A DNA stretch of 64,000 nt, from positions 1 to 64,000 of the forward strand of contig JAQXRI010000148.1 of the NCBI GenBank assembly GCA_029218445.1. The letters run 5' to 3'. Below the pieces are notes generated by a model, which was given only the letters and a program-made list of their open reading frames with translations, ran no database searches and was not told where the DNA came from. How positions within the stretch are numbered: position 1 is the first letter of the stretch; the number at the start of each line of letters is the position of its first letter. Source of the stretch: Prevotellaceae bacterium (lineage in GTDB: Bacteria > Bacteroidota > Bacteroidia > Bacteroidales > Bacteroidaceae). A program made the position numbers and the translations under genes. Below are positions 48,292 through 55,261 of this stretch, piece after piece.

Positions 48292-48441
48292 AATGGTGCA
48301 AAGGTAGTGATAGAAAATGGAAAAGTGCAAAAATTTACAGTTAAAAGTATTAAAATACATGATTATTGGACAAAAACATTTGGTTATGTCGGCAAAACGA
48401 CATATCTTTGCATATTCATTAATCAAAACTCTTATATAAGA

Positions 48442-49203
48442 ATGGACATTCAACCCAAAATAATAGCCGGACCTTGTGTCATCGAGTCAGACGAACTGCT
48501 CGACACCGTAGCCAAAACATTAGTTGTAATAAATGCCAAGTTTGGCATCGACATAATTTTCAAGGCTTCATTCGACAAAGCCAACCGTACCTCCATCAAT
48601 TCTTTCCGTGGCCCTGGCATTGACAAAGGGCTGCAGATGTTGTCAGACATCAAAAGCCGTTACGGCCTGAAGATTCTGACCGACATACATGAAAGTTGGC
48701 AGGCTTCACCAGTAGGCCAGGTCGTTGACGTCATCCAGATACCTGCATTCCTTTGCCGTCAGACCGACCTCCTTGTGTCAGCCTCAAAAACAGGCTGCAC
48801 AGTAAACATCAAGAAAGCCCAATTCTTGAGTGGCATCGACATGAAATACCCCGTAGAGAAAGCACGCGAAAGTGGCGCCAAAGAAGTATGGCTTACCGAG
48901 CGTGGCAACATTTACGGCTACAACAACCTTGTTGTTGATTTCCGCAACATACCCGACATGCTGCAAATTACAGATACGGTCATTATGGACTGTACCCACA
49001 GCGTCCAGCGTCCTGGAGGTGCAGGCGGCAAGACAGGTGGCGACAGGTGCTACGTGCCAATGATGGCTCTTGCCGCCAAGGCCTTCGGAGCAAACGGGTG
49101 GTTTTTTGAAGTTCATCCTGACCCGGACAAGGGGCTCAGCGACGCAGCCAACATGCTTGAGTTAGACAAGCTCGAAAGCCTTGTTGAGCAACTGATACGT
49201 TAA
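48442..49203 (+). CDS. kdsA: 3-deoxy-8-phosphooctulonate (KDO-8-P) synthase
   Basis: IIAGPCVIES...FKASFDKANRTSINSFRGPGIDKGL...DCTHSVQRPGG. Confidence 0.95.
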   Translation: MDIQPKIIAGPCVIESDELLDTVAKTLVVINAKFGIDIIFKASFDKANRTSINSFRGPGIDKGLQMLSDIKSRYGLKILTDIHESWQASPVGQVVDVIQIPAFLCRQTDLLVSASKTGCTVNIKKAQFLSGIDMKYPVEKARESGAKEVWLTERGNIYGYNNLVVDFRNIPDMLQITDTVIMDCTHSVQRPGGAGGKTGGDRCYVPMMALAAKAFGANGWFFEVHPDPDKGLSDAANMLELDKLESLVEQLIR

Positions 49204-49256: not shown

Positions 49257-50204
49257 ATGAAAATAAGAGAATACGCCATACAATGTATAAAAGATGAGGC
49301 CAAAGCACTTTTAGACCTCATTCCAAAACTTGACGACAACTTCGACGATGCGGTAGAACTCATATACCGCTGCCACGGCAAAGTGATTGTCACTGGAGTA
49401 GGCAAAAGTGGACACATTGGCGCAAAGATAGCAGCAACGCTTTCCAGCACCGGCACCCCCTCATTTTTCATCAACCCGCTTGACGTGTTCCATGGCGACC
49501 TTGGCGTTATGACAAAGGACGACGTAGTGCTGGCCATATCAAATTCGGGGCAGACTGACGAACTACTGCGTTTCATACCTATGGTACTACACATGGAGAT
49601 ACCCATAATCGGCATGAGCGGAAACACGAAGTCGCTGTTGGCAAAATACTCGACTTATCACATCAATGTCAGCGTTGAGAAGGAAGCCTGCCCATTAAAT
49701 CTTGCACCCACAAGCAGCACAACGGCAACACTTGCCATGGGCGACGCCCTTGCCGTGGCTCTAATGGAAAAGCGCAACTTCCGCCCGCAGGACTTTGCCC
49801 AATTCCACCCAGGTGGAGAGCTCGGCAAACGACTGCTTACTTCAGCACAGGATGTAATGCGCACCGAACAACTGCCTGTGCTTAATCCTGACATGCACCT
49901 TGGCGAAGCCATCATATTGGTAAGCAAAGGAAAGTTGGGACTTGGCATAGCAATGAACGACGAGCGCATCGTAGGGTTGATAACCGACGGTGACATTCGT
50001 AGAGCAATGGAAAAGTGGCAAGCCAAATTCTTCGACAAGACCGTTGCAGACATAATGACCAACAATCCAAAGACAGTGACAAGGCAAACCAGAATATCAG
50101 AAATACAAAACATCATGAACAGATACAAAATCCACTCAGTGTTGGTGACCGACAAGGAGCGTCACCTGCTTGGAGTGGTTGACCACTATTCATGCATGAT
50201 TTAA
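49257..50204 (+). CDS. kdsD: KpsF/GutQ-family arabinose-5-phosphate isomerase
   Basis: VIVTGVGKSGHIGAKIAATLSSTGTPSFFINPLDVFHGDLG (SIS) and C-terminal CBS domains. Confidence 0.95.
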   Translation: MKIREYAIQCIKDEAKALLDLIPKLDDNFDDAVELIYRCHGKVIVTGVGKSGHIGAKIAATLSSTGTPSFFINPLDVFHGDLGVMTKDDVVLAISNSGQTDELLRFIPMVLHMEIPIIGMSGNTKSLLAKYSTYHINVSVEKEACPLNLAPTSSTTATLAMGDALAVALMEKRNFRPQDFAQFHPGGELGKRLLTSAQDVMRTEQLPVLNPDMHLGEAIILVSKGKLGLGIAMNDERIVGLITDGDIRRAMEKWQAKFFDKTVADIMTNNPKTVTRQTRISEIQNIMNRYKIHSVLVTDKERHLLGVVDHYSCMI

Positions 50205-50221: not shown

Positions 50222-53200
50222 ATGGCAATTACAACAAAAACGTTGAGGAAGACTTTAGTCCTGCTGCTACTGGCCATCCCTCTCGCAGCAGCCGGCATTT
50301 TCACATTCAAGACGCTTAACGCAAGAGTAGGCCTGAACAGCAGCCAAATAAACTGCATACTCAAGGACTCGCGCGGCTTCGTATGGTTTGGCACACCTGC
50401 CGGACTATACCGTTACGACGGTTATACATTCAAGAACTTCCAGTGCAACTCACTTGATGGCTCTTCGTTGCCCGACAGCTACATTCTGGACATGCAGGAG
50501 TCGCTCGACGGAAACATTTGGATTAACACGGCATCAGGACTTTGCATCTACAATCCTCAAACCGAAAGTTTTGGCCGTGAACTAAAACAGAAATTTGCCC
50601 AAATGGGCATTAAAGAAATACCCCAAAAACTATATATCGACAGTCAAAAGAACGTTTGGGCATACATTCACGGTAGAGGCATAATGGGCTACAACACACA
50701 ACAGCAGCTTCTATACGAGTTTGGCTATACAGAAGACGCAAAAGGAATACCGCAAGGCGAAATAAGCTCTATAAGCGAATGCCGTGAAGGAGCACTTGTC
50801 GTGTACACCGACGGACGACTCGTTTGTCTGAACATAGCCAATCAGCAAACCACAGTATGGTCAAACGACGAAATAGCAAAACAAGGACTTCGCAAAAGCA
50901 GCACATTGAAGGCATTTGCCGACCAGATGGACAACATTTGGCTTTACGGCCAAGGCACACTAATGCTCTACGACAAGAAAGCCAACACATGGAACACTAC
51001 CATTGGCAATCCACTTGGACTGACAAGTATGAACATCGATAGAAGTGTTACGAGCATGGCAGGCGACCGAAAAGGCAACATCTGGATAGGAACCGACCGT
51101 TCAGGACTGATACGCATGAATGTCAACAACCACGAGATGGAAAGCGTATCTCCACGCAGTGCAAGCAACAACTCAGCCATAATCGATGACGTTTCAGGCA
51201 TATTGAGCGTTTATGTTGACGATTCCGACTTATTGTGGGTGGGTACGGAAAAGGCAGGTGTGGCCTATTACGGTAAGGACATATATAAATTCGACTCGGA
51301 ATTTTATGGTGACATAACGGCCATGGTTCAAGACAAAGACGGCAAAGTATGGTATGGAACCAGCAACAATGGACTCAAGGACTACAACGGGCCTCTGGCC
51401 AGCCAAAAAGTCAGTGCCTTGGCAACAACACCCGACGGCAGCCTGTGGGTGGGATCAAAGCAGAACGGACTGACAAGAATAACAAAAAGCGGCACCATTT
51501 TCTATTCTACAGCGAGAGACAGTGGCCGCACCGTCATTGACGACCACATAAACGCCCTCTGTTCTGATAAAACCGGCAGCCTTTGGATAGCCACTGCTGG
51601 CGGACTGCAGGTCTATAATCCAAGAATGAACACATTCTCAACCTATACCAAAGAGAATGGCAAATTGTCGTCAAACAACATCACGTCACTGTTTTATGGC
51701 CACAACAACAACCTGCTCGTTGGTACCAATGAGGGACTCATGATATTAAACCTTTCAACAACGGAAAAGACACTGTTGACGGGAAACTCGACAAACCTCA
51801 AAACATTCACTAACGACTATATTACACATGTAATGCAGGATTCACGAGGATTGATATGGGTTGGAACACGTGAGGGCGTCAACATATTGAACCTGTCGAA
51901 CGACAGTTTGAACTATATCACAAAAAGCGAAGGACTGTGCAACAATTGCATCTGCGGCATCACCGAAGACAAAAACCACAACATGTGGATAACAACAAGC
52001 AACGGCGTATGTCGAGTAGTGTTGCAGCGTATGGGCAAGGAGGGACAGTTCAACTATGGCCTATACAATTATGACATAAGCGACGGATTGCAGAGCAACG
52101 AATTCAATATGGGTTCGATACTCACAAAGAAAGACGGTAATGTACTATTAGGAGGCATATACGGCATCAACTGGATAAAACAACGAGGCAAAGAAAACAC
52201 CCGTAGTTTCCCGCATGTAATGCTGACCCAGCTGTTCATTGGTGAAGTGGAGATACAGACAGGCCATGAATACAATGGCACTGTACCATTGCCACAGGCA
52301 TTGAACGAAAGCAATTCACTGTCACTCTTGAACACGCAGAACACGTTTACCATAAAATTTGCAGGAGGCAATTACAATCAAAGCGAACGCCTGCAGTTTA
52401 CCTATTGGCTTGAAGGACGTGACGACGATTGGCGTAATGGCGACGCACTCACGCATGGGGTAACATTCCATAACCTGAAAAGCGGAAAATACATACTGCA
52501 TGTGAAGGCCATCAGCGAAGACGGCGACGTAAGCAAGCAGGAGCGTACATTAGAAATTACCATTGGCAGGCCATGGTGGAGTTCATGGTGGATGTTGCTT
52601 ACTTACGTAGTATTGTTGATTTTCACTATTTACATCGTACGAATTATTACACGACGTATTAACTATATCTGGCAGAAAAAGAAGGCCGTATTGGGCGAAC
52701 TGACACGACAACGCAACGAAGTGAAGACAGCGAGCGACGAACTGCGCCAGCCTATGGCACGAATGGCATCAATCATTGGCAACATTGCAGAAAAGGCCAA
52801 CAATGTCGAAATGAAGGAACAGGTCAACTCGCTCCATTCACAAATGCTGCAAATCATCACCCGAATATCTGAAATGCAGATGTATCTCGACAATCCAGAG
52901 TCAAAAGCCATTGCTGTTGCCAGCGACCGACTACAGCTGAACGACCATGGAGAAGTCAACTTGCTTGCCAATACGAGCGACGAGCTGACGGCAGAGATTG
53001 TAAGACCAAAGAAGACGGGACTTGTCACACAACAATACACCATCGTATTCGTTGACAAGAACAAGGAATTCCTCAACTTCATCAAAGACCGCCTTGGCGA
53101 CATTTACAACATTTACACCTACGACAACTCCATTCACGCCTACAACGACATTGAGGTACTTCATCCCAACATTGTCGTGGCAATGGAAGATATGCCAAAG

Positions 53201-53998
53201 ATGTCAGGCAGCGAACTGTGCAACAACATTAAGACAGACTCTCGATTCAACGACATTCAGTTTGTGCTAATGACCGATGGCGTGCTGTCGTCAGCAGAAA
53301 TGGCCGACCGCAACATAACTGTTTCAGCCGACGACTACCTGTCGAAGCCGTTCAACCTTCATGAAGCAGCCACTCGATTCAACCGACTGCTTGGACTGGC
53401 ACCTGCAGAAGGACTCAGCGGAGTGATAGAGGGTGAAGAGACACGACGACTTGAGGGCTACAGTTCAAGTATGACCACCGCTACTGTTGAATACAATGAC
53501 ATTGAGGATGAAGAAACAGCGGCAGCACGAGAAGAAGCACGAAAGGTGGAAGAGAAAAAGAAACAAGACGAAGAGGAAAAACGCAGGCAAGAGGCAAACG
53601 TAAGCCGTCAACTAAGCCTATACTCAAACGGCGAGACCATAGGCGACTACTCCATGGCCGACTCAATGGACAAACAGCTTGTGGTAAATATCGAGCAGTA
53701 TGTGCTGCAGAATATGAGCCGCGGACACATCAACCTCGAAGAGATGTCGTCAGCCATGGGCATGGGACGAGTGCCTTTCTATCATAAAGTCAGGGCCATC
53801 ACCTCAAAGACTCCGGCAGAACTCGTGCGCGACCTGCGCCTAAAGCATGCCTGTACACTGCTTGAACGCACCAACATCAACCTTAGCGAGTTGGCGATAA
53901 ACGTAGGATTCGTAACAGCAGAAAACTTCATAAATATCTTTAAAGAAAAGTATGGCATGTCGCCATTGGAATACAGATTAGTACACAGGAAACAATAA
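50222..53998 (+). CDS. HTCS-like regulator: two-component propeller, Y_Y_Y, TM, degenerate DHp, pseudo-receiver, AraC HTH
   Basis: Propeller repeats (DSRGFVWFGTPAGLYRYD...), TM, SDELRQPMARM in place of SHELRTPLT, no HATPase, receiver with M in place of Asp, intact AraC C-terminus (GFVTAENFINIFKEKYGMSPLEYR). Confidence 0.88.
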   Translation: MAITTKTLRKTLVLLLLAIPLAAAGIFTFKTLNARVGLNSSQINCILKDSRGFVWFGTPAGLYRYDGYTFKNFQCNSLDGSSLPDSYILDMQESLDGNIWINTASGLCIYNPQTESFGRELKQKFAQMGIKEIPQKLYIDSQKNVWAYIHGRGIMGYNTQQQLLYEFGYTEDAKGIPQGEISSISECREGALVVYTDGRLVCLNIANQQTTVWSNDEIAKQGLRKSSTLKAFADQMDNIWLYGQGTLMLYDKKANTWNTTIGNPLGLTSMNIDRSVTSMAGDRKGNIWIGTDRSGLIRMNVNNHEMESVSPRSASNNSAIIDDVSGILSVYVDDSDLLWVGTEKAGVAYYGKDIYKFDSEFYGDITAMVQDKDGKVWYGTSNNGLKDYNGPLASQKVSALATTPDGSLWVGSKQNGLTRITKSGTIFYSTARDSGRTVIDDHINALCSDKTGSLWIATAGGLQVYNPRMNTFSTYTKENGKLSSNNITSLFYGHNNNLLVGTNEGLMILNLSTTEKTLLTGNSTNLKTFTNDYITHVMQDSRGLIWVGTREGVNILNLSNDSLNYITKSEGLCNNCICGITEDKNHNMWITTSNGVCRVVLQRMGKEGQFNYGLYNYDISDGLQSNEFNMGSILTKKDGNVLLGGIYGINWIKQRGKENTRSFPHVMLTQLFIGEVEIQTGHEYNGTVPLPQALNESNSLSLLNTQNTFTIKFAGGNYNQSERLQFTYWLEGRDDDWRNGDALTHGVTFHNLKSGKYILHVKAISEDGDVSKQERTLEITIGRPWWSSWWMLLTYVVLLIFTIYIVRIITRRINYIWQKKKAVLGELTRQRNEVKTASDELRQPMARMASIIGNIAEKANNVEMKEQVNSLHSQMLQIITRISEMQMYLDNPESKAIAVASDRLQLNDHGEVNLLANTSDELTAEIVRPKKTGLVTQQYTIVFVDKNKEFLNFIKDRLGDIYNIYTYDNSIHAYNDIEVLHPNIVVAMEDMPKMSGSELCNNIKTDSRFNDIQFVLMTDGVLSSAEMADRNITVSADDYLSKPFNLHEAATRFNRLLGLAPAEGLSGVIEGEETRRLEGYSSSMTTATVEYNDIEDEETAAAREEARKVEEKKKQDEEEKRRQEANVSRQLSLYSNGETIGDYSMADSMDKQLVVNIEQYVLQNMSRGHINLEEMSSAMGMGRVPFYHKVRAITSKTPAELVRDLRLKHACTLLERTNINLSELAINVGFVTAENFINIFKEKYGMSPLEYRLVHRKQ

Positions 53999-54001
53999 AA
54001 A

Positions 54002-55261
54002 ATGATACGCATCATATTTACTGCGTGTTGCCTGTTCCTCGTCGCTGGACATACAAGAGGCGAGGAACGGAGCGACTCGACCATTAAGTACATACTTGAA
54101 AAAAAGAACGTTGAGTTTACCAACGACAACTCTGTCACGCTGCTCATGAACGGACATGAAAAATTTGACGATATGTTTAAAGCTATACGTCAGGCGCGGC
54201 ACCACATACACCTTGAATACTTCAACTTCCGCAACGACTCAATAGCATCGGCACTCTTCGAGCTGCTGAAACAAAAGGCAGCCGAGGGCGTTGCCGTGAG
54301 GGCTCTTTTCGATGGATTCGGCAACGACTCCAACAATCGACCTCTTAAGAAAAAGCATTTGAATCCATTGCGTGAGGCGGGCATAGAAATATATGAATTC
54401 GACCCTATACGTTTTCCATGGGTAAACCATGTGTTCAGCAGAGACCACAGGAAGATTGTGGTTATCGACGGAGCCATTGCCTATACCGGAGGAATGAACG
54501 TGGCCGACTACTACCTGAACGGAACTGAACAGGTGGGAGAATGGCGCGACATGCACTGCCGAATAGAAGGCAGTGCCGTTGACGAGCTGCAACGCATTTT
54601 CCTGAGAATTTGGAACAAAGTCACCAAACAGGACATTCAAGGCAATGAATATTTCAGCCAAACAAACACGTTCGACCAGCTGAAGCCGGACACTACGGGC
54701 ACTGCCGGACATAAACTTTTGGGAATAATAAACCGTGAACCACGCAAGACGTCCGACATCATTCGCACATTCTATCTTGAAGCCATCAATTCAGCACACG
54801 ACTCAATCAAGTTGGTCAATCCATACCTCACACTCAACCACAAGCTGAAAAAGGCTTTACGCAACGCCGTAAAACGAGGGGTAAAGGTTGAAATAATGAT
54901 ATCACAGCACAGCGATATACCTTTAACACCTGACTGCGTATTCTACAATGCCCACAAACTAATGAAGCATGGTGCTGACATTTGGGTGTATCAACCAGGA
55001 TTCCACCACACCAAGATAATAATGGTTGACGGACGCTTCTGCACAGTTGGCAGCGCTAACCTAAACGCTCGAAGCCTGCGCTGGGACTATGAAGAAAACG
55101 CCGTCATACTTGATTCCTGCACTACACGCGAACTAAGCCAGATGTTCGACCACGACAAGACCAAGAGCCTATATCTTACCGAACAGCTTTGGGATGAAAT
55201 GCGCACGCCTTGGAAGAAGTTTGTAGGCTGGTTTGCCCATTTACTTGCACCATTCCTCTGA
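54002..55261 (+). CDS. Phospholipase D-family protein (cardiolipin synthase-like)
   Basis: Two HKD motifs: HRKIVVIDGAIAYTGGMN and HTKIIMVDGRFCTVGSANLNARS. Confidence 0.92.
   Translation: MIRIIFTACCLFLVAGHTRGEERSDSTIKYILEKKNVEFTNDNSVTLLMNGHEKFDDMFKAIRQARHHIHLEYFNFRNDSIASALFELLKQKAAEGVAVRALFDGFGNDSNNRPLKKKHLNPLREAGIEIYEFDPIRFPWVNHVFSRDHRKIVVIDGAIAYTGGMNVADYYLNGTEQVGEWRDMHCRIEGSAVDELQRIFLRIWNKVTKQDIQGNEYFSQTNTFDQLKPDTTGTAGHKLLGIINREPRKTSDIIRTFYLEAINSAHDSIKLVNPYLTLNHKLKKALRNAVKRGVKVEIMISQHSDIPLTPDCVFYNAHKLMKHGADIWVYQPGFHHTKIIMVDGRFCTVGSANLNARSLRWDYEENAVILDSCTTRELSQMFDHDKTKSLYLTEQLWDEMRTPWKKFVGWFAHLLAPFL

Follow-up and report, generated by a model that had tools for sequence, protein, structure and literature searches.

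Does a gene that has the sensor and output domain of a hybrid two-component system (HTCS) and no phosphotransfer machinery represent a decaying allele, or a regulator that works in another way? This question is raised by an open reading frame (50222-53998, 1258 aa) in a 64,000-nt stretch of a Prevotellaceae genome (GCA_029218445.1, contig JAQXRI010000148.1, positions 1 to 64,000), hereafter the window. All window features described below are on the + strand. The coordinates and motifs given for the gene in a first-pass annotation, which was made from the sequence alone, match the sequence. The overlap with the preceding gene (kdsD) proposed there depends on the start codon. It holds for an alternative ATG at 50192, which gives an overlap of 13 nt, but not for the signal-peptide-like start at 50222, which lies 17 nt past the kdsD stop. 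A start downstream of kdsD is also found in most orthologues.

Pfam recognises Reg_prop, Y_Y_Y, Response_reg, and HTH_18 in the window protein. An N-terminal signal peptide or anchor (50222-50299), seen as the hydrophobic stretch MAITTKTLRKTLVLLLLAIPLAAAGIF, precedes a periplasmic Reg_prop β-propeller sensor (50300-52366; E 3e-40, eight stretches), whose best structural relatives are solved HTCS sensors (phmmer, 4a2l E 1e-62 and 3v9f E 1e-48). Next come a Y_Y_Y domain (52370-52564, residues 717-781; E 3e-12) and a transmembrane (TM) helix (52574-52654), which is apparent as the hydrophobic stretch WWSSWWMLLTYVVLLIFTIYIVRII and is a single long helix in an AlphaFold model. The cytoplasmic half starts with a pseudo-DHp helical hairpin (52697-52897), in which HisKA is detected only under the Pfam cutoff (14.7 versus 26.9 bits) and which gives a weak HisKA match in 25/27 orthologues. 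It is followed by a short linker (52898-53029, ∼45 aa, low pLDDT) standing where the HATPase_c domain would be, a pseudo-receiver (53030-53389; Response_reg, residues 941-1049), a poorly conserved charged linker (53390-53656; mean conservation 0.52, low pLDDT), and an AraC-type double helix-turn-helix (HTH) DNA-binding domain with the stop codon (53657-53998; HTH_18 E 3e-15, residues 1176-1252). Because both DHp helices are retained (pLDDT ∼80), the HATPase domain has been removed rather cleanly.

The residues needed for phosphotransfer are also missing. Residue 839 (52736-52738, gac), at the DHp His site, is Asp in ASDELRQPMARM, and residue 988 (53183-53185, atg), at the receiver phospho-Asp site, is Met in HPNIVVAMEDMPKMSG. 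The acidic-pocket residues 945/946 (53054-53059) read Asp-Lys, with the codon of Lys946 at 53057-53059, while Thr1018, Tyr1039, and Lys1042 of the receiver are kept. Misalignment of these sites was rejected, since MAFFT alignment with the canonical HTCSs L040 and L046 puts His and Asp in the same columns. A hidden HATPase domain was rejected as well, as Pfam gave no HATPase_c match up to E=1 in the window protein, and 26 other orthologues gave none at E≤0.1. Under the standard scheme, this chain cannot carry out phosphotransfer, there being no ATPase, no His, and no Asp. The first-pass annotation had described the His→Asp and Asp→Met changes, the shift of the pocket from VDD to VDK, and the absence of HATPase_c between DHp and receiver, together with intact propeller, Y_Y_Y, TM, and AraC HTH regions, and our analysis agrees with it on each of these.

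A genome scan identified 29 Prevotella orthologues, with 55-78% identity over the best segment. All are open and 28 are complete, L032 being cut by a contig end. Pooling the scan orthologues with loci taken from species-level genomes yielded a set of 57 distinct cytoplasmic halves. At the position of the DHp His, 48 of them have Asp, nine have Glu, and none has His. At the receiver phospho-Asp site there are 56 Lys, a single Met found in the window only, and no Asp. Acidic residue 1 and the switch Thr, Tyr, and Lys are each invariant (57/57). Acidic residue 2 is variable (39 Asp, nine Ser, five Asn, three Thr, and one Lys). The window sequence alone lacks Lys at the Asp site and alone carries it at acidic residue 2, so that every sequence has one extra pocket lysine; this swap is a single case, an observation and not a statistic. 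In 27 cytoplasmic halves (window and 26 orthologues), Response_reg and HTH_18 were matched in every one and HATPase_c in none (0/27). The near-invariance of the receiver Lys, and with it the peculiarity of Met to the window genome, lay beyond the view of a single sequence, as did the conserved operon placement and the repeated losses in relatives described below.

Selection was assessed in close pairs using the Nei-Gojobori method (own script), leaving out the window-L038 pair because its synonymous sites are saturated. The dN/dS values were 0.01-0.22 for TM and DHp, 0.03-0.27 for the receiver, 0.01-0.07 for AraC, and ∼0.04-0.18 for the ∼760-residue sensor. Every domain is therefore under purifying selection, with dN/dS far below 1 throughout. 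Mean conservation of the DHp helices (0.82 and 0.85) is about equal to that of the AraC domain (0.86). That sensor, hairpin, receiver, and AraC domain have all been retained under selection speaks for a functional regulator, as judged from conservation. The first-pass annotation had named orthologues as the check, expecting His, Asp, and HATPase to reappear in them if the allele were decaying and the losses to be under purifying selection if not. The orthologues bear out the latter.

The regulator lies between genes for envelope components. The first gene of the operon is kdsA (48442-49203, ATG at MDIQPKIIAGPCVIES), encoding KDO-8-phosphate synthase. Arabinose-5-phosphate isomerase is encoded directly upstream of the regulator by kdsD (49257-50204), and a phospholipase D-type cardiolipin synthase directly downstream by a cls-like gene (54002-55261), which begins 3 nt past the regulator stop codon. 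There is no susC/D neighbour, as previously noted. The same order, kdsA-kdsD-regulator-cls, is found at orthologous loci wherever the contig extends far enough, with kdsA upstream in 26/29 (the other three are contig ends), kdsD upstream in 28/29 (the exception is a contig end), and cls downstream in 29/29. At least 18 of the 29 loci show a possible 4-nt ATGA overlap between regulator and cls. Across dozens of Prevotella species from gut and rumen, the regulator has been kept intact in this same lipopolysaccharide/lipid operon.

Within the genus, 39/120 genomes carry the regulator (392-469 bits), the others having no match at E≤1e-30, and it was found in 0/196 other genomes of an order-wide sample. 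Among 30 genomes sampled by kdsD, the regulator adjoins kdsD in nine; in 20 of the remaining 21, cls directly follows kdsD. The kdsA-kdsD-cls operon is the older unit, and the regulator entered it downstream of kdsD and upstream of cls. In a kdsA+kdsD tree, two changes suffice to explain its presence, and a single carrier clade is not rejected (AU p 0.59). It has therefore most likely been fixed once, in one Prevotella subclade, and kept vertically with no more than about one loss in our sample. In L116 (G258), the cls gene that follows kdsD is broken between two frames and is possibly a pseudogene or an assembly error.

We searched for an operator by comparing k-mers upstream of kdsA in 26 carriers and 19 non-carriers. 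No convincing conserved operator emerged from this comparison, which gave only the promoter-like TATCTTTGCA and a sequence apparently shared by descent in one subgroup. An inverted repeat, TATGTCG-GCAAAA-CGACATA, is present at the kdsA promoter-like sequence of the window (48385-48404). It was rejected as an operator candidate, since it occurs in the window only and is not preserved in L038, the closest relative.

The cytoplasmic half was modelled with AlphaFold, using 27 sequences in the alignment. In the model, the TM helix is continuous into the DHp hairpin (pLDDT ∼80), and a receiver, an AraC double HTH, and disordered linkers are seen. The pTM of 0.32 means that the domain arrangement carries no reliable information. 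Foldseek matched PDB receivers at a TM score of ∼0.8 (of target), and AraC-type domains were also matched.

Taken together, we think it likely that the gene encodes a phosphorylation-independent transmembrane AraC regulator, whose ancestor was a hybrid two-component system and in which phosphorelay has been lost for good. Since all parts of the phosphate relay have been lost and yet the gene has been kept in the same operon, it probably switches by shape change alone. In brief, binding of a periplasmic ligand would move the TM helices, and the pseudo-DHp hairpin would hold the dimer and pass the movement onward. The receiver, which lacks the aspartate and carries a lysine in the acidic pocket, would act as a spacer or dimerisation module, and ligand would govern how the membrane-held AraC domains bind DNA. 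By analogy with known aspartate-less regulators (PMC4395418, PMC12632262), we infer conformational, phosphate-independent signalling through the hairpin and a spacer role for the pseudo-receiver. The family-wide losses and low dN/dS favour the one-component-like, conformational regulator suggested in the first-pass annotation. The most tentative step, a guess from position, is that the targets may include its own kds/cls envelope operon; a regulator within a housekeeping operon might act elsewhere. The family also points to a possible role for an HTCS-type sensor beyond polysaccharide loci, namely the control of envelope genes (Kdo, cardiolipin).

Other readings of the same data were weighed. 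One, which we regard as unlikely, is that the phosphotransfer interface has become a permanent electrostatic latch, in which the acidic pseudo-DHp docks the basic pseudo-receiver and ligand makes or breaks the dock, releasing AraC. It is prompted by the charges at the two sites, acidic in DHp (Asp or Glu, 57/57) and basic in the receiver (Lys, 56/57); in the window, the lysine has shifted to the adjacent residue of the acidic pocket. Alternatively, the protein could be a constitutive membrane-tethered DNA binder, with expression or location determining how active it is and with a sensor that is vestigial or a mere anchor. HP1043 and ChxR dimerise without phosphorylation, some aspartate-less regulators are apparently controlled by abundance or location (PMC12632262), and the gene sits in a housekeeping operon. 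However, the low dN/dS of so large a sensor is hard to explain without sensing, which makes this reading unlikely.

Phosphorylation could also occur in trans, if the protein formed heterodimers with an intact HTCS or kinase, as a modulator or dominant-negative partner. The strong conservation of the DHp dimerisation hairpin fits this, and canonical HTCS-type genes are present in the same genome, but the window protein has no acceptor His or Asp, its nearest own-genome relative (L187) is itself kinase-less, and DHp pairing is normally specific; we consider this very unlikely. Least credible of all is that a normal HTCS is decaying in this allele or has become a pseudogene, or that the genome holding the window was misassembled; we judge this extremely improbable. 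Met at the phospho-Asp site and Lys at acidic position 2 do occur in the window gene alone, and its assembly is fragmented (167 contigs). Nevertheless, open orthologues at 29 other loci, and in 39 genomes of the genus, have the same losses wherever the residues could be read, and these conserved losses, with the low dN/dS, refute decay at the level of the family.

How does a regulator of this kind compare with known systems? With the HTCSs of Bacteroidetes, such as BT4663 (sensor structure 4a2l), it shares the propeller/Y_Y_Y sensor, TM helix, DHp hairpin, receiver fold, and AraC output (HTH_18 27/27), and canonical HTCSs are its closest relatives by sensor phylogeny. It differs from them in lacking phospho-His, HATPase_c, and phospho-Asp throughout its orthologues, and in its locus, a kds/cls operon rather than a susC/D one. 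Failing three defining features, it is, on its domains and residues, HTCS-derived and should not be filed as an HTCS. The receiver resembles the aspartate-less or pseudo-receivers of HP1043, ChxR, and RitR (PMC4395418, PMC12632262), sharing their fold without phospho-Asp. It also retains acidic residue 1, the Thr/Tyr coupling pair, and Lys, which are usually, not strictly, kept in such receivers (PMC4395418). Unlike these, which are free response regulators, it lies within a membrane sensor chain. Moreover, a basic residue at the Asp site is rare among aspartate-less domains (∼4%; PMC4395418), whereas Lys is nearly invariant in this family. How pseudo-receivers switch has been described as unsolved (PMC12632262).

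In mode of action, the protein is probably most like SusR-like one-component regulators (PMC3878776). Both are kinase-less Bacteroidetes membrane regulators with a periplasmic sensor and a cytoplasmic DNA-binding domain. The DNA-binding domain of SusR is, however, reportedly unlike any known family (PMC3878776), whereas the present one is an AraC HTH, accompanied by DHp and receiver relics. The protein also falls under hybrid transmembrane transcription regulators as these are defined in the accessible part of a survey (PMC10269533), having a TM segment, a DNA-binding domain, and at least one two-component core domain in one chain. That part of the survey classes proteins by domain content and describes no lineage in which the catalytic residues have all been lost and the loss is conserved. 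Our literature search found no paper on HTCSs without a kinase domain or on this regulator lineage.

The origin of the family was examined in a sensor tree, in which homologues are best hits and a non-exhaustive sample. The tree joins the family to L168 (G065, another genus; support 100/99), which has a pseudo-DHp with Glu, no HATPase, and Glu at the receiver site, and to L169 and L174 (94/95). L169 has neither DHp nor HATPase and keeps the receiver Asp, and L174 has Ser at that site. The remainder of the tree consists mostly of canonical HTCSs. HATPase-less relatives hence occur in two other genera, alongside canonical HTCSs. L169 is directly upstream of cls, and L168 is upstream of cls with one transporter gene between. 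These genomes are too few to establish a functional link, but the absence of HATPase and the closeness to cls could each be ancient. A single origin for all kinase-less relatives was rejected by a one-clade constraint (AU p 1e-55), as was joining L172/L173 to the family (AU p 3e-40). L172/L173 and L187 with L175/L176 therefore represent independent losses, at least two in the group besides that of the family.

The related sensors form a natural series, from intact HTCSs through loss of HATPase with Asp kept (L169) and replacement of the receiver Asp by Glu (L168), Ser (L174), or Lys (the regulator family) to loss of the receiver too (L172, L187). With such a series it can be tested if a one-component transmembrane switch can arise from a two-component chain, and what role the leftover DHp and receiver play.

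Several relatives have unusual layouts of their own. L187 (G000:C84), a 1033-aa own-genome paralogue with ∼30% identity that adjoins a LacI-type regulator gene, has a sensor, a TM helix, a short DHp-like coil, and an AraC domain, and neither HATPase nor receiver. Two further G000 proteins are HTCS-like. In L194 (G000:C52, 1076 aa), a DHp with its His (IVHELRTP) and the initial portion of a HATPase are fused straight to an AraC domain, with G-boxes and receiver missing; L193 (G000:C94, 992 aa) has a coil and AraC only, without kinase or receiver. The HTCS-like L170 (G227) keeps DHp His and HATPase and has a linker in place of the receiver. This linker resembles that of the fully kinase-less L172/L173, and L170 is apparently an evolutionary intermediate. 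L175 (G218) and L176 (G067) are propeller sensors with a HATPase-like domain and without receiver, AraC domain, or recognisable DHp His. Finally, in the otherwise canonical HTCS L185 (G108), the conserved receiver Lys is replaced by Thr (ITTPFN).
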